A stretch of 64,000 nt of DNA, taken from Paracyclopina nana (lineage: Eukaryota; Arthropoda; Copepoda; Cyclopoida; Cyclopettidae). Made by a program: the position numbers and the translations under genes. The notes under the pieces were generated by a model. It ran no database searches, was not told where the DNA came from, and worked only from the letters and a program-made list of their open reading frames with translations. Positions 21,901 through 39,862 of this stretch are shown here, one piece after another. The stretch is from assembly GCA_019096065.1 (NCBI GenBank), contig JAGUCH010000001.1, forward strand, positions 2,914,001-2,978,000, in the 5' to 3' direction. The first letter of the stretch is position 1. Each line of letters begins with the position of its first letter.

Positions 21901-23371
21901 CTTTCATAGCTTTATTCTTTAAAAGAGCTCATTTATCCATACACACTGGGGCTATTGCAATAAGGGCAAGCGCGCCGTATTATTTTGAGGCTGCTCAATT
22001 GAATAATACTCAATTGATGCTCTAAAGGAGTATGTGCAAAAACTGAAAGAGTTTCACGACAACAATCTGTTTCCGGAATTCATGAAGAGCCCAACAACAG
22101 CTACGTAGTGCTGTATGTTAGTAGTGAAAAATTGTCATGAATGTTGTCGTAAATGATGCACTTTGTGCTCTTGACATAAACTAGATGAAAAATTATGAAC
22201 ACTTCCTCTGGCCTCAGCACAGTGATGCTAACTAAAATGGCCATTATTTTAGGGCCAAAATGATAATGCGATTCCAGCATCACTATCATCATCATTTTTC
22301 CATTTTACTGCTAGACCGTGAGAACTTTGATTGCTTGACCTCTGACAGTTGGTTTCCGCTCACTTGGCCTCTTTGCATACTACAACAGTTTCTCACAAGA
22401 AGCAGTAGTGGCTAAAGTTTAAATTCCACCAGCCTCCGTTGGTGCTTTTGGTTGGTCGGTGGGTGCCGCAACACAATGGGAAAAGGAGGCATTTCATGCA
22501 ATGTCGTTCGTAGCAGTAGAAGAAATTTCGCCGTAAAATTCGCCGCATGCGGTCCATTGTAAATTCGGAGCAAAAATCGAGTGCACCAGTTTTTTCCTGC
22601 AGGAGCAGCACCATTTTCTCTTACTCCTCCTCAAAGCTTTGGACTCACGCTGGCTGAGTGGGCACTCATCGCAGCATGCAAATGAGGCTCTCAGATCCAA
22701 AAACTGGCTTAAATGAGGCAGACTCCCTAGCCTCCTTTTTATCTGCTGATATGGGTGTCATCAGCTACGTACAACCAGCCTTAAAAGCCTTGATACGCTT
22801 TAATTGCGCGAGCACTTGGGGCACCAAAATAATCCTCGCATCTTAGACTTTTCCGGCCACCCACGTACGCCTACAGTGCGGCTTTTTGGGGCTCATTCTC
22901 GATTCTGATTCGGAGTTGATGTTGGGCAAAACCGTGCAGAATTCGCGCGAGCCTCAAAAAGAGTGTGATATAGCCAGCATTCATTAAGGTAGTTTTATGC
23001 TGGGCCATTCTTGCACACTGTGCCCTCGCCATCTGCGAGAAGATTAATCTCAATCATGGTGTACCCAACTCCGCTGCATCAAAACCATTAAAGTGGAGGT
23101 TATATCTAAAATAAGCCAATTTTGCCATACACACTAGGTGCAAAAACAGCCTATTTGTCCTGAGGCCCCAGAAGCTGTCAATTTTCTTGTTTATGCCTCT
23201 TTTTTTCAAAAGTGTACCACCACCTAACAAGGAGCTATGGCAGGCTGCTATCAGATCTGGAAGTCAGCTCAAATGGGTATTTGTTTATGCAGAGGAGCCA
23301 GCTCAGCTGGTCAGGGCAGAAAAGCTCAGGTTGTATGGAAACGTTCGCACATATAAATGAGCGCGGCCATA
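18914..23371. other. Gene-free stretch
   Basis: No supported gene. The longest frames (for example 21424-21810, plus strand) have no recognisable domain. A CTG run lies near 20,778-20,790 and a (CCCG)n-like cluster near 21,110-21,124. Nothing else distinct was seen. Confidence 0.5.
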
Positions 23372-23373
23372 TA

Positions 23374-23946
23374 CAGTCTGTTTCAGAGATTTCTACGCAC
23401 TTTGAAATCAAAAGTTTGTGTTACGGATTTGATAAATGCTAGACATAATGGATATCGTTGGAAACCTTGAAACTCTGGTCTTCTTTTTTATTAATATCAC
23501 TTTTGATAAAAATTAATTAAGATTTGGATTAAAAGCCTAAAATAAAAAAGCACTCAAAAATGGCACCCATTTTTTTGATGGCAATGCACACATTTCAAAA
23601 TGGTCAAAATTGCGAATTTTGACATTGTTTTTTTTTCGATAAAGGATTAATTGTTCTTCTCAGCATTAAAATACTAATGGTTCATCAGTGATTTTGATTT
23701 TATTATGAAAATGCTTGATTTTAGCTGCATTCAGTAGGTGAAAAATTGCACTTTTGCTCTAAAAAAGTTGCCACGGAAAAATTTAATTTTCTTATCTTTT
23801 TTACTTTTATTTTGGGATTTTCACTGCTACAAAATAGATGGCAAAAGATTCAAGCTTTCCAATGATATCCATTTTGTACCGCATTTCTCAAATCCGCAAC
23901 ACAAACTTTTGATTTCAAAGTGCGTAGAATTCTCTGAAACAGGCTG
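23374..23946. mobile_element. Mariner-type MITE, family A (TA-flanked)
   Basis: A 573-bp element with long terminal inverted repeats. The left end (CAGTCTGTTTCAGAG...) and the inverted right end (CAGCCTGTTTCAGAG...) match over roughly 60 bases, including the shared motif AATCAAAAGTTTGTGTT. TA dinucleotides lie directly outside both ends (23372-23373 and 23947-23948), the target duplication used by Tc1/mariner elements. A second pair of inverted motifs, ATATCGTTGGAAA near 23,450 and its complement near 23,855, continues the inverted repeat inward. No transposase frame is visible. The subterminal sequence is shared with the element at 33406-33794, although the outermost ~32 bases differ. Confidence 0.8.
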
Positions 23947-23948
23947 TA

Positions 23949-26900
23949 TAATAAGCTGGCTATATTCTATATGGGGTGATTGGACCCCAGTGAATGGTAG
24001 GAGGGCCACGTCGTCCCAATTTCAATCCTTTTCTCACTGGTCATCATCGCATCCTCTGCAGGAGGTCCCAAATCATTTTCCATATTAAGTACTACAAGTG
24101 GAAAAGATGCGAAAAAAAGGCTCACGGACGATAAATGCGATGATTAGAATTTACGAGGAGGCGGCCAACTTCATCCAGAAGGAGAGGCCAGACCAGCTCA
24201 TTATTTTTGTGAATTCCCGCTGATCCGAACAAAAGAAGCTCGCTGTCCATTAATGTTAACAAATTTTGGAATAGGAGCTTGAAACGATTGAAATCGTCAT
24301 GCCCACAAGCTATGCAGACTACCTTCTAAAGCTGCCAACCCTTTTAAATTTGTGTCCGAAATTCGCTACATTGCATTCACGTCATTCTAGTTTGTCTTCT
24401 TCATCTGCCAACCGGTTCAGGCTGAAAAAGACATTCTTTTTCCCTTAGGTTACTTTTATCGAGATAAGAGTGACAGTAACGAGTGATATCAAGCCAAAAT
24501 GCCAGTCGATCGTGGGCAAAAAATTGTGGCCAAATCCAGCATATTTTGGAACCCTTTGTCGTCGTCAGCATTGTCATCGATTGAATACTTGACATGACTT
24601 CTCTCTTGTCAAGTTCCCTTTTCCAATAATAGAAAGAAATGCTCTTCAAGCTGAAAAGTAAATAGTTTTGTTGGCTTGCCTGCCTGCCTGGTTGCCAGCC
24701 GCAGCCGGATATCAAATTCCGCGCCTCAATTTAATTTTCCAAGAGCTCTGGTTACGAATCTCATCCTACACTGCAAATAGCCTTGATTTTGCTCGAGAGC
24801 TGCTCCAGATAAGCATTCCTTTCTGCAGCGACAAAATAAGTGATAACTCAAGCCTCCTCCACATTATGCTTTTTGTCATGAATTAGCTTTAGCTGGTTCA
24901 CAAAAAATTCATCGACTCGATTCCTGAACTGCATTTTGGACCAATTTTAAATTGAGGCCTTCTCTATTTTTAAGCCTGCGATTTAAAGTGCATCATCTGC
25001 TTGTACCAAAATCTGACGCTCATTATTTGTCTCAGATTGGCAAAGAACGCGAAAGAGGCGATTGTGGCGACCGCAAAAAAAAAAAAAAAAATATGCACTG
25101 CCTTTTTTGCTCGCAAAATTGAGAATTGCAGTGCCACTCTCATTTCAGGATGACTACTTTTTTACCGTTGATATTAATGTTCAACTGAGTCCACACCATG
25201 TACGTACGAATTCTGTTCTCAGTATATCACTGTCACTGGTGACCCAAATAGAATGTCTTATAAAAACTATTGGCTACGCGTACTCTCCTTTATGAAGAGA
25301 GGCTGGCTGCTGCTGCTTACCATGCATTGTCGTTTATTCAGGCATATTTATGTTAATCATAGGTGACAAGGTCTATGAAGCGCATAAAAAAGCTTCCCCC
25401 TTTTGTTGCTATCATATCCCATTTATTAGTCACTACTTTGTTCAAGGAGAAATTCTTGAGTAGTTACTGGTCGCGCCAAACCCCAAATTATGGGGGCTAC
25501 AAAATGCTCGTAATTTTGCACACACTGAGTGCTACTACAGCTATTACTACTTGTACTAACACAAAGGAGTCCTCTCTTTGGAGTATTTGATCGGCCATAA
25601 AAATGTTGTGGGTCTTTTGCTTTTGAGGCATCTAGAAACCAATTGTGTGATAACATTTGATGCCAACTACCACTGGATTGATTTATGCATCAGAGGCTCT
25701 AGATCTGATGTTTACGATCTATTGTCTGCGAAGTATTGATCAAAAGCCGAGTTTTTTCTCCTTCTCGCCAAGAATGCCTTTTTAACCTTATACGCTTAAG
25801 TAATGAGGAATTCGCGTCACGTGCGCTTTGATTTGCGCTCCTAATGTACTTTAATTAATGGACTCGTTAATATACAAATCAATTTATGTCACTGTTTTAA
25901 ATAAAACCAGTCGCGACAGCCGGTCAACTGCACGAAAATCGCCTTGTGTATTATGCGTATTAAGTAGTTAATAAACATAAGCTACACATTATGACAGCCA
26001 CAGCCCATAAATCCATCAAGTAGAATTAGTATTATTTTCTTTTTTTCTGTCGTGATTTACTGATCAGCCGCCATTCAGAACGGCGCCATTCAGTTGTATG
26101 TAAAACACCTGTTTTAATGACACTGGCCTGAAAATGACTTATCAATCATAATGACAATAGAACGCTATCACTGTTATTTCGGGGCTTTTTCTTTTCTCTT
26201 TGAGGCGACGTTAAAACGTATTTCATGGTGATGGGTAATGCAGAAAGCTCATGAGCTCTTTCTTTTATTGTATGCCAAGTAGCTCAACAGCTGGCCAAAA
26301 GATATTTTAGTAGTACAACACATAAGACGTTAAAATATGTGCATGATATGCAAAGACATGCTCAGCAACAATGAAATGTTTTAGGAGCTTCAAGCTGCGA
26401 TGCACACTTGTTTTTAGTCAGATTTGGAGTTGACCCCAACACCAAAAACCGTTGCTAGAATTAGGCTAATTCATAATCGCTAAGCTTCTGTGGGAAACGA
26501 ATTGTTTTTCGCCTAATCGCCTTTTTTAATAGGTTTTATTGCTGCCTTTGTGGAAGCAGAATTGCAGATGTTTTTGCCACTAAAATCGGGGAAAGATTAA
26601 TTCTTTACAGCCATTTTAATTAAAACAAATGCAATGTACTCTTACCAAACAAAAGCAGCTGTGATTCTTTCTCGGCAGCAGTGACAAACAATGCCAGAAG
26701 GATTTATAACAACAAAAGACATGAAAAGTTTGACACCCCCACGCAAAAAAAATTTCTGTAGCTTGATCCAGTTATTGTTTTGGAAAATGTGCAGACGCCG
26801 CAGAATTAGTATCAACCCCAACTAAAAGTAGCTAGCTGCTCCAAAACAGACAATGTACTCTTTGAGAGTGGAAAAAAAGACAGTAAATGTTTTGGCTACC

Positions 26901-33403: not shown

Positions 33404-33405
33404 TA

Positions 33406-33794
33406 CCGTCTGACCGTTCAAAATTGGACGGTGCGGGAATCAAAAGTTTGTACTACAAATTCATGAATTTTGTGGCTTAATGGGTATCGTTGGAAAGCTT
33501 GAACCTTTAGACATCTTTTTTGTTTTCTGACAAAATGAAAAATATTATAGTGAATTACCCGTGACATAAAAAAAGCCATGACACACTAGTTTTCACGTGA
33601 CAATTTACCGGATTACCTTGGGTATATTGAATTTTCCTGGTTTTTTCCTCCTTAAATTGATTTTTTCTACTTTAACAAAAAAGATGGAAAAAGGCTCAAT
33701 CTTTCCAACGCTATCATTTAAAAGTCCTGTATTTCGTGAATATGCGACAAAAAGTTTAGATTCCGGTACCGTCCAATTTTGAACGGTCACACTG
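33406..33794. mobile_element. Mariner-type MITE, family B (TA-flanked)
   Basis: A 389-bp element. The left end CCGTCTGACCGTTCAAAATT and the inverted right end CAGTGTGACCGTTCAAAATT match over about 30 bases and continue into GGACGGT. TA lies outside both ends (33404-33405 and 33795-33796). Inside, AATCAAAAGTTTG, then GGTATCGTTGGAAAGCTTGAA, match the subterminal region of the element at 23374-23946 in the same order and spacing. The outermost ~32 bases are unrelated between the two. No coding capacity is visible. Confidence 0.78.
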
Positions 33795-33796
33795 TA

Positions 33797-35918: not shown

Positions 35919-37455
35919 CTTAACAGACTGATTTTTTATCGCGGGGCTTCGTTTGATACATCGATTCGGGTTTGATTTTTCAATTTTGGGCCCAAAACCC
36001 TTGTCACCATGTGGTTTGATGGGGTTTCAAGTTTGGCGGCCCCCAGGATGCTCTAAGGGGGTCAAATGGGGCCTGGTCTAATCAGCTGATTGAAACAAGG
36101 CAAATCTTTGCGGGGGCGTGGCTGGAGGAGTGGAGGGCAGCCAAAATCAACTATGCCCCAATTCTTGAGGCCCCTGGGGGGTGTCCAGATGTCAGGGGAA
36201 AAAAGTTGGAAAAAGTCCTCGTCAAGGCCAAAAAAAGCCAAAATTTGCGTTTTCGGACCCGACTTTGAGGCCGATTATCTCCAAAGGCCACGGATGGATT
36301 TTGGATTTTTTTGCTCCAAATGGCAGATAAAGATCCAAATTAGTACCAAGAAAAAATTTGGGAGGGTGTTATTCCTCGTTTGTCCGCTACGAGCTCTCAA
36401 AGTTGGACAAAATTCACTTTTTCACAGTAGTAACAAAATGGCTACTTTTCTTCTGTCAAAAATTCTCGATTGGTCACAGTGGCCAAGTTGATGGCTGGAG
36501 TGTGGGCCATTTGGTCTGGAGGACACCTCTAGGGTCTCAGTGGTTGGTATCAGGTCCAACTTCCTTGGTAGGGCTAGGCCAGGCCCAGCCAGGAGCCTTG
36601 GAGCCGAGCCATCGCGACGGCCATTTCGATTCAGTGGCAATTCCAAGGGCCTTGCTGCCAATTCTGGGGACAGATTGTTAGCCATTTGTCCTTGATCACT
36701 CCTTCAGGGTCCCAGCAGATGATTTCAAGGCTAACAGTCAAGGTACAGCAAGGCCAGCTTGATCCAGGGGGCTTGGAGTTCACTTGTGGCATTGGTGATT
36801 TGGCTACAGAAAGTCTTCGAGGGCCTTGATGGCCAAGATCTCGGATCAGGTGAGGATTTTTTGAGCTGTATCACTCCTTTGGCATCCCATGAGATGATTT
36901 CAGGCTCAACTTTGATGGTGATCATCAGCTGACTGCTTCCAGGGCTACCAGAGCTTATTTGCCAACTCAGCTGCCAATGGTTCAATGAAAGGCAGCATGG
37001 ATCACAGCCAAGACCAAGGCTGGAGAGTGGATTTTTTAGGCTGAATCAACTCAAATGGAAGCAAGGAGATGAAAGACAGTCTATTTTTCATGGTGTTATG
37101 CTCCCTTCTTCAAACAGGAGTGCCAAAGCTTCATGTGAACAAAAGTTGAAAATGGCTACAATAAAGAGCTCCTTTGATTGCAGCCAAGACGAGCGATGGC
37201 AAGTCACTTTTTTGCCCCAGCTCATCTCATTGGGTGCCAAAGAGAATTTAGAAGGTGTATAATTCCAGGTGTTGTGCACCTTTCATGGTTCTGGATGCGC
37301 AAACTTTCCTGTGACAGCCAGAGCTCTTATAATAACAACTGCTACTCGCAAACGGAAAACGCCTCGCGCTCAAAAATTCACGGATGGAACTTGACTTTTT
37401 TGGCCTAGATCACCTCAGTGGGTGCCAAAGAGAATTTAAAAGGTGCAAACCGTCA
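35919..37455 (+). repeat. Left arm of the foldback
   Basis: About 1.54 kb, the inverted copy of 38326-39862. It begins CTTAACAGACTGATTTTTT. An 8-bp insertion (GCGACCCC) just outside this point separates a possible further TCATCT match from the arm. Toward the centre the arm carries motifs such as GGTGCCAAAGAGAATTTA at about 37,231 and 37,424, spaced like the tandem units but in opposite orientation to the core array. Confidence 0.85.
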
Positions 37456-38400
37456 GGTGTTATGCGATTTGCTGCGCGCGAGTCCATTTTCATCCGCGAG
37501 AAGCAGCATAAAGTGGCCATCACTCCATAAAACTTTGCCCAGTCCAGAATCATCAAAAATGGAAAAAACCCGATATTTTTCACATTCTACAGCCTCTTTG
37601 GGACCAATGGAGTTGAGCTGGACCAAAAAATTCGCATTCCACCCGCGATTTGCTGCGCGCGAGCCCATTTTCATCCGCGAGAAGCAGCATATAGTATAAT
37701 AGTGGCTGTCACTCCATAAAACTTTGCCCAGTCCAGAATCATGAAAAATGGAGAACACCCAAAATTTTTCACATTCTACAGCCTCTTTGGCACCAATGGA
37801 GTTGAGCTGGACGAAAAAAGTCAAGTTCAATCAGCGATTTGCCGCGCGCGAGCCCATTTTCATCCGCGAGTAGTAGCATATATTATAATAGTGGCTGTCA
37901 CTCCATAAAACTTTGCCCAGTCCAGAATCATGAAATATGGAGAACACCCGAAATTTTTCACATTCTACAGCCTCTTTGGCACCAATGGAGTTGAGCTGGA
38001 CCAAAAAAGTCAAGTTCAATCCGTGATTTGTCGAGCGCGAGCCTTTTTCATCCGCGAGTAGTAGCATATAGTATAATAGTGGCTGTCACTCCATAAAACT
38101 TTGCCCAGTCCAGAATCATGAAATATGGAGAACACCCGAAATTTTTCACATTCCACAGCCTCTTTGGCACCAATGGAGGTGAGCTGGACCAAAAAAGTCA
38201 AGTTCAATCCGCGATTTGCTGTGCGCGAGCCCATTTTCATCCGCGAGTAGTAGCACTTAGCATAATAGTGGCCATCACTCCATAAAACTTTGCCCAGTCC
38301 AGAATCATGAAATATGGAGAACACCCGAAATTTTTCACATTCCACAGCCTCTTTGGCACCAATGGAGGTGAGCTGGACCAAAAAAGTCAAGTTCAATCCG
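37456..38400 (+). repeat. Central 189-bp tandem array, about 5 units
   Basis: The word CCATAAAACTTTGCCCAG recurs at 37525, 37714, 37903, 38091 and 38280, giving spacings of 189, 189, 188 and 189 bp. Units are highly similar, with scattered substitutions and a 1-bp deletion in one unit. All point the same way as the right arm. On the minus strand each unit is open for 63 codons, so frames run across neighbouring units until the 188-bp unit shifts the frame. I see no protein family in them. Confidence 0.9.
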
Positions 38401-39862
38401 CGATTTGTCGAGCGCGAGCCTTTTTCATCCGTGAGTAGCAGTTGTTATTATTTGAGCTCTGGCTATCACATGAAAGTTTTGCGCATCCAGAACCATGAAA
38501 GGTGCACAACACCTGAAAGTTTACACCTTCTAAATTCTCTTTGGCACCCCCTGAGCTGAGCTGGAGCAAAAAAGTGACTTGTCATCGCTCGTCTTGGCTG
38601 CAATCAATGGAGCTCTTTATTGTAGCCATTTTCGACTTTTGTTCCCATGAAGCTTTGGCACTCCTGGTTGAAGAAGGGAGCATAACACCATGAAAAATAG
38701 ACTGTCTTTCATCTCCTTGCTTCCATTTGAGTTGATTCAGCCTAAAAAATCCACTCTCCAGCCTTGGTCTTGGCTGTGATCCATGCTGCCTTTCATTGAA
38801 CCATTGGCAGCTGAGTTGGCAAATAAGCTCTGGTAGCCCTGGAAGCAGTCAGCTGATGATCACCATCAAAGTTGAACTTGAAATCATCTCATGGGATGCC
38901 AAAGGAGTGATACAGCTCAAAAAATCCTCACCTGATCAGAGAACTTGGCCATCAAGGCCCTCGAAGACTTTCTGTAGCCAAATCACCAATGACACAAGTG
39001 AACTCCGAGCCCCCTGGATCAAGCTGACCTTGCTGTACCTTGACTGTTAGCCTTGAAATCATCTGTTGGGACCCTAAAGGAGTGATCAAGGCCAAATGGT
39101 CAACAATCTGTCCCCAGAATTGGCAGCAAGGCCCTTGGAATTGCCACTGAATCGAAATGGCCGTCGCGATGGCTCGGCTCCAAGGCTCCTGGCTGGGCCT
39201 GGCCTAGCCCTACCAAGGAAGTTGGACCTGATACCAACCACTGAGACCCTAGAGGTGTCCTCCAGACCAAATGGCCCACACTCCAGCCATCAACTTGGCC
39301 ACTGTGACCAATCGAGAATTTTTGACAGAAGAAAAGTAGCCATTTTGTTACTACTGTGAAAAAGTGAATTTTGTCCAACTTTGAGAGCTCATAGCGGACA
39401 AACGAGGAATAACACCCTCCCAAATTTTTTCTTGGTACTAATTTGGATCTTTATCTGCCATTTGGAGCAAAAAAATCCAAAATCCATCCGTGGCCTTTGG
39501 AGATAATCAGCCTCAAAGTGGGGTCCGAAAACGCAAATTTTGGCTTTTTTTGGCATTGCCGAGGACTTTTTCCAACTTTTTTCCCCTGACATCTGGACAC
39601 CCCCCAGGGGCCTCAAGAATTGGGGCATAGTTGATTTTGGCTGCCCTCCACTCCTCCAGCCACGCCCCCGCAAAGATTTGCCTTGTTTCAATCAGCTGAT
39701 AAGACCAGGCCCCATTTGACCCCCTTAGAGCATCCTGGGGGCCGCCAAACTTGAAACCCCATCAAACCACATGGTGACAAGGGGTTTGGGCCCAAAATTG
39801 AAAAATCAAACCCGAATCGATGTATCAAACGAAGCCCTGGCCAAAAAAATCAGTCTGTTAAG
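38326..39862 (-). repeat. Right arm of the foldback
   Basis: The inverted copy of the left arm. It shows a ladder of diverged units: an A-rich anchor preceded by a GAGTTGAGCTGG-like word occurs near 38,561, 38,738, 38,914, 39,087 and 39,263, a spacing of about 173-177 bp. Similarity to the core unit falls with distance from the centre. Confidence 0.85.

Follow-up and report, generated by a model that had tools for sequence, protein, structure and literature searches.

A foldback-type, TTAA-targeting DNA transposon in the copepod Paracyclopina nana, with a variable centre and rows of diverged tandem units in its arms

FB elements make target-site duplications in the range of 7-9 bp, and members of the piggyBac superfamily have TTAA as their target. 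Tetris is a foldback transposon of Drosophila virilis (PMC4079207), and the tandem units of Galileo are about 210 bp long in one D. mojavensis subfamily and about 140 bp in one D. willistoni copy, with arms-only copies and chimeric copies whose arms come from different lineages also being known (PMC3573991, PMC4168063); the target duplications of the two elements span 7-10 bp overall (PMC4079207, PMC3573991, PMC4168063). Around human centromeres, alpha satellite forms a younger array flanked by older layers that are no longer homogenised (PMC2729386). The element described below resembles Tetris in being apparently non-autonomous, without conserved ORFs, and in having long arms composed of an outer flanking domain followed by tandem units, which are of about 220 bp in Tetris; many rearranged forms, and a unit that also occurs in long satellite-like arrays elsewhere, are further likenesses (PMC4079207). 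With Galileo it shares long arms that are in part made of tandem units (PMC3573991, PMC4168063).

The window, which is the whole stretch of 64,000 nt that was analysed, contains one copy of the element at 35924-39857, bounded on both sides by TTAA. The inverted arms of this copy (35919-37303 and 38478-39862) are 1385 nt each and 97% complementary, in agreement with the figure given in the first-pass annotation, and are separated by a spacer of 1174 nt. The left TTAA target-site duplication (35920-35923) is assigned from the position of the tip, the TTAA found at 44/44 tips and the empty site at locus L034 described below. It is followed by the left outer terminal domain (35924-36497, plus strand), which has no detectable units and begins with a tip composed of CAGAC, 23 variable nt and then TTTGATACATC. 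The left row of arm units A5, A4, A3 and A2 occupies 36498-37197 on the minus strand, with borders mirrored from the consensus arm to within 2 nt (about 36498-36672, 36673-36847, 36848-37022 and 37023-37197, respectively), and leads to A1, the innermost unit of the arm (37198-37373, minus). Next come a partial core unit pointing left (37378-37463, minus) and the dyad, an orientation switch at about 37464-37494, between profile matches at 37378-37494 (minus) and 37474-37648 (plus). Five core units (37464-38407, plus), oriented as the row of the right arm, are followed by the right A1 (38408-38583, plus), by A2, A3, A4 and A5 (38584-39283, plus; about 38584-38758, 38759-38933, 38934-39108 and 39109-39283), by the right outer terminal domain and tip (39284-39857, minus) and by the right TTAA duplication (39858-39861). 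The left side mirrors the right, except that it has one partial core unit only. Core units are 188-189 bp long, A1 is 176 bp, A2-A5 are 175 bp each and the outer domain is about 575 bp. Elsewhere in the window there are two short palindromic repeats (23370-23950 and 33404-33796) with arms of 120 and 64 bp that are related to each other (74% alike), and open frames with Pfam matches to 7tm_1, ribosomal L27A, PP2A B56 and Ion_trans_2. From inspection by eye we take the 7tm_1 frame to be an opsin.

Alignment of the units bears out the five near-identical core units of the first-pass annotation, which are spaced at 188-189 bp and are 87-96% alike; at least four or five more diverged units had been proposed for each arm, and there are five. 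Each unit resembles its neighbour, with identities of 67-72% (core-A1), 50% (A1-A2), 57% (A2-A3), 51% (A3-A4) and 57% (A4-A5), and local alignment against shuffled sequences gives these pairs z values of 34-50, 8-9, 11-17, 11-13 and 10-13, respectively. Likeness falls off beyond the neighbour, such that A5 is 57% identical to A4, 47% to A3, 46% to A2 and 30-37% to A1 and the core, and the z values of core units against the outer ones are 2-6 (A2), 1-3 (A3), 1-4 (A4) and 1-2 (A5). The homology of arm and core units that had been proposed is therefore supported pair by pair along the row, with A3-A5 tied to the core through their neighbours only and their likeness to the core at background. When 18 overlapping arm windows, at arm positions -12 to 681 outward from the core border, were scanned against 300 dinucleotide-preserving shuffles, an alignment to the next unit was found at a lag of 171-177 in every arm window except the weakest (n=18); in 14/18 the score was reached by 0/300 shuffles (z 4.1-13.9), and in 4/18, at unit edges, by 1-14 of 300. 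When a profile was trained on units from every locus, it recovered both A2 units of 22/22 two-armed copies, with scores of 64-85 bits. The same local-alignment scan detected no units beyond A5, the outer ~575 nt of each arm having a z of about 0. The suggestion that the whole 3.94 kb was built from one unit thus applies to a homologous ladder from the core to A5 and not to the unitless outer ~575 bp of each arm.

Across the third core unit and A1-A5, identity declines with rank distance (57, 46, 41, 32 and 36%; r=-0.845), and 2/720 permutations of unit order are as extreme, a number that the true order and its reverse alone would give; for A2-A5 alone it is 2/24. The outward fall in similarity to the core that the first-pass annotation read as ageing is thus present, although the chain of neighbours is not that of a simple clock: growth from the centre at a constant rate predicts that A5 should be equidistant from all inner units, with which the observed chain disagrees. 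To arise, such a chain requires that the centre changed faster or that neighbours exchanged sequence in the past. A reading with no directional growth, in which a tandem array was homogenised between neighbours only, by short-range unequal exchange or conversion, and its outer part froze later, agrees with a similarity that tracks rank distance rather than nesting depth. It is also consistent with the lack of a dimeric higher-order pattern in A2-A5, which we looked for and rejected since A2-A4 (46%) and A3-A5 (47%) both lie under the neighbour values. Neighbour homogenisation alone nevertheless leaves unexplained why variation is confined to the centre while the core units are so alike, and the comparison of families A and C (below) shows outer units that are frozen; we consider it unlikely.

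The 92-Mb, 10-contig assembly that contains the window was searched with one arm, yielding at least 114 matches (best 40 of 89 candidates scored), and the copy counts that follow are lower bounds because 40/89 candidates were scored. The genome-wide search for other copies and their target duplications, proposed as a check in the first-pass annotation, revealed both: the family to which the window copy belongs (family A) has at least 24 loci, the window copy and 23 others, some of them truncated, and the outer domain is also present at a 25th place, C2:10621473 (best 40 of 85 candidates scored). TTAA adjoins 44/44 intact tips of the 24 loci, 20 of which have both tips and four have one. This number was reached from 48 matches to the tip pattern by removing four in L035, which are preceded by GGTT, lie 170 bp apart and are away from the element end. 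Not counted in the 44 is the mutated right tip of L025 (L036), which also adjoins TTAA; about 5.1 kb of other DNA lies within the right arm of this copy (C4:2123600-2129900), and the presence of arm positions 64-73 on either side of the insert points to a target duplication of at most 10 bp. One-mismatch tips were also seen at C2:16121035 and C7:6808251, against 7 of this kind in the control of that search. With the shorter tip pattern TTAACAGACTG there were 54 matches, compared with 57 for the backward control, and no pairs among the 12 that lay outside family A.

A natural empty site is provided by L034, the left flank of which is a 146-bp tandem repeat. All 5/5 uninterrupted monomers read CC-TTAA-(A/T)TAATAAC (CC-TTAA-ATAATAAC or CC-TTAA-TTAATAAC), while the inserted monomer reads CC-TTAA-CAGACTG at its left junction, and the nearest empty monomer, GGAAGGGCC, is identical to the inserted one up to that junction. 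Because of this empty site, TTAA is the target sequence and the element starts with CAGAC; at the left end, this rules out a terminal repeat that includes TTAA. The site informs on the left junction of L034 only, its right end being rearranged, and from the TTAA at both ends of 20 other copies we infer that TTAA is duplicated on insertion. The distance from CAGAC to TTTGATACATC is exactly 23 nt in 53/53 matches from families A, B and C, though 14-36 were allowed, and only 7/23 of the intervening positions are common to one family A tip and family C. We note that this stretch (35929-35951 in the window) diverges strongly between families at constant spacing while the neighbouring sequence is 98% identical, and the divergence could possibly reflect a switch of recognition sequence. 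The outer 137 nt were considered as a candidate stable hairpin, which was rejected (z 0.96; 167/200 shuffles fold equally well or better). With long inverted arms, internal tandem units and a flanking target duplication, the element has the structure of a foldback element and is a foldback-type, TTAA-targeting DNA transposon.

The centres of the copies are more variable than their arms. Between the two A1 units there are 1-8 unit matches in 21/22 two-armed copies and 10 in L032, a copy with an extra arm piece, and the orientation switches sit at differing places. L018 and L019 have left arms that are 99.86% alike, yet their centres hold 8 and 7 unit matches. Single linkage of full-length units at 88% produces six clusters, of which the A1 class is the largest, and units of this class are also present in the cores of L018, L019, L025 and L026. 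Among 44 arms, diversity is 0.6-4.0% per 100 nt outside the innermost 184 nt and 8.1-8.6% within them, where the value may include comparison of non-orthologous units; L034 and L035, with one arm each, were excluded from this count and from the permutation test of arm pairing below, and were included in the between-copy mean. The centre therefore differs between copies in the number, type and orientation of its units, and A2 and the outer row in the arms are common to copies at 94-100%. Faster change at the centre, one of the two conditions that would produce the chain, agrees with the higher diversity of the innermost 184 nt. L024 (7.5 kb) and L025 (C4:2114357-2128892) were considered as autonomous elements and rejected, since their extra length comes from a different repeat family, with TCCTACTAAAAGGCACACAATG ends, nested inside their cores (L024:2868-7103 and L025:2271-7327), in L025 together with the DNA of about 5.1 kb in its right arm, and their longest frames matched no Pfam family. 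That other repeat family is abundant (157 first-look candidates, best 40 of 157 scored), is also found at L046:1240-5946, and has internal units of about 189 bp together with GGCACACAAT short repeats. The core unit itself recurs at about 70-79% in arrays elsewhere, for example at C1:8349-8372 kb. The consensus of the 44 arms has 28 CpG compared with 77 predicted from base composition, a shortage that could have arisen from methylation-driven loss.

Two sister families share the ends of family A. Family B tips (CAGACCGTGGGCC...) gave 11 matches at up to 3 mismatches, with 0 for the control, and among the 11 are two inverted pairs (C2:10800132-10804349 and C4:8489283-8496042); the AAAA flanking the second pair was rejected as proof of a 4-bp duplication, for which it is weak support, both sides being A-runs. 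In L048, the one family B copy read to its tip, a row of units leads straight into the same outer domain (91% over 433 bp), A2-A5 being absent, and the tip adjoins TTAA; the array locus L045 continues into A1-A2. A family B tip at C1:8347911-8372324 is followed by blocks of core units (71-77% alike) over about 24 kb, as in a satellite-like expansion. Family C (C3:8907758-8914891, with tips CAGACTAAGCGCC...) has TTAA on both sides, and the outermost 159-211 nt past the tip are 98-99% alike to those of family A. Its left arm (L049) contains A1-A5 in the same order, with identities to the family A arm of 77.0% (core), 85.1% (A1), 92.0% (A2), 96.6% (A3), 95.4% (A4) and 92.6% (A5), and 93.8% for the start of the outer domain. 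As A2-A5 of family A are only 46-57% alike among themselves, positional counterparts are far more alike than neighbours in an arm, and the row of units is therefore older than the split of A and C. In this alignment of one arm of one copy, the change between the families appears greatest at the centre, where low identity may reflect comparison of non-orthologous units, and the gradient is not monotonic (A5 at 92.6% and the outer start at 93.8% are both below A3 at 96.6%).

This conservation of A2-A5 between the families, at 92-97%, could also be expected if the arm units were retained as secondary transposase-binding sites and stabilised by selection for binding rather than by freezing, by analogy with Galileo, the tandem units of which are reported to have multiple binding sites (PMC3573991, PMC4079207). 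Such a role seems improbable, since A2-A5 differ from each other at about half of their positions and have no strongly shared site, with likeness rising only mildly in one part of the unit, from 42-54% to 55-62%. L048 also speaks against it, in that its tip adjoins TTAA although A2-A5 are missing, while L045 does continue into A1-A2.

The two arms of a copy are more alike than arms of different copies. Arms within a copy are 96.6-100% alike (mean 98.8, 22 copies) and between copies 94.2-100% (mean 96.9), and the within-copy mean of 98.81%, compared with 96.92% in shuffled pairings, was equalled in 0/5000 trials. Over the outer ~1150 nt, 16/22 within-copy pairs are at least 99.5% alike, as against 42/924 between-copy pairs. 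This excess of likeness within copies supports homogenisation of the arms, although partner arms are mutual closest relatives in only 10/22 copies; in L018, L019, L024, L027, L028, L030 and L031 most differences between partners lie within the inner 250 nt. The window copy is itself mixed, arms of L013 (99.35%) and L017 (99.64%) being nearest to its left and right arm, respectively, with the partners 97.4% alike, and its tips (ATCGCGG and GGCCAGG) belong to arms with 37 differences scattered along their length. Since each arm is nearer to that of another copy, the 97% is the average of the family and no sign of a recent event; the duplication or conversion between arms that had been proposed thus finds support as homogenisation, and its recency in this copy does not.

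At L033 (C3:5072515-5076477; with flanks C3:5071051-5077941) the two host flanks match each other perfectly in inverted orientation over about 1465 bp and are unrelated farther out, and the arms are identical over their outer 522 nt and differ at 28 positions in their inner parts. The pattern looks like the product either of arm-templated repair continuing past the element or of misassembly. The inverted flanks are what might be expected if the structure were an artefact of assembly, from fold-back reads or a collapsed satellite; a simple fold-back read would not leave arms that differ at 28 positions, however, and 20 copies have both tips and TTAA in differing flanks, sister families B and C share the ends, and an empty site exists. 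We therefore give this explanation almost no weight, and for the family as a whole it is refuted: at least 24 copies, TTAA at 44/44 tips and the empty site identify a foldback-type TTAA transposon.

None of the 11 frames scanned from the window copy, L024, L025 and L049, including three inside the window element, matched a Pfam family. The element appears to be non-autonomous, no coding region being recognised in these frames, and mobilisation in trans would follow. A search of the genome for PF13843 (DDE_Tnp_1_7) gave 0 candidates and its control matched nowhere; with PF13358 as a yardstick in the same genome there were 72 candidates and 0 matches, and no positive control was obtained.

Taken together, the element is probably a non-autonomous TTAA foldback transposon in which each arm carries an outer domain and an old, satellite-like row and the dyad carries a variable array, maintained through growth driven from the centre, freezing, mobilisation in trans and arm-templated repair. 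Units would be gained or lost at the centre through unequal exchange or hairpin-related template switching, and those displaced outward would grow too divergent to recombine and would freeze. A transposase acting in trans on the CAGAC... tips could then move the frozen arm as a block, and one arm may serve as the repair template for the other, so that the palindrome is kept. A live central array with freezing would account for the A/C gradient and the chain of neighbours as well as for the rows common to the copies and a centre that varies. A bolder version, which we offer as a tentative possibility, is that the transposon holds a record of its own growth, units being born at the centre of the palindrome, pushed out pairwise, fossilised, copied intact and kept symmetric by repair between the arms; at L033 such repair apparently went beyond the element and carried about 1465 bp of flanking host DNA to the other side.

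As with Kolobok and T2-MITE, the target is TTAA, although Kolobok ends are RR (AG...) (PMC6004289) and those of this element are CAGAC. Kolobok was rejected by end sequence: all 53 tips start with CA, and though the pattern demanded CAGAC, the empty site fixes CA as the start for L034. The TTAA target is likewise that of piggyBac, for which the PF13843 search gave its 0 candidates without a positive control. A target duplication of the FB or Galileo kind was not found, the flanks viewed having TTAA and nothing longer, with which the empty site agrees; of the FB-like foldback element suggested by the first-pass annotation, the foldback build stands, and membership of FB/Galileo (P superfamily) is excluded by the target duplication. 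Tetris differs in having a target duplication of 8-9 bp, and its units within complete copies are 87% alike on average, compared with 46-57% for A2-A5; the excerpts of its report used here describe no outward series of ageing units like that seen in this element (PMC4079207). Galileo belongs to the P superfamily, with a P-type transposase and a 7-bp target duplication (PMC3573991), and age layering, present here, is likewise not described in the parts of its reports used (PMC3573991, PMC4168063). The nucleosome-sized unit, thought unusual in the first-pass annotation, is less so, as about 180 bp is not rare among units of about 220 bp in Tetris and about 210 or 140 bp in Galileo (PMC4079207, PMC3573991, PMC4168063). 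Centromeric satellites are known for age layering, but replicate examples are hard to obtain there; that of alpha satellite is on the scale of the chromosome and involves no transposon (PMC2729386), whereas here a similar layering occupies the two arms of a mobile element of 4 kb and is copied along with it. Similar layering in a 4-kb element with at least 24 copies and related families makes a centre-out model testable with replicated natural data, and unites a TTAA transposon, a foldback build and satellite-like arrays in one system. Within the literature searched we found no description of a TTAA foldback element with age layering. The nearest known elements are Tetris and Galileo, from which this one is set apart by its TTAA target and its age layering.
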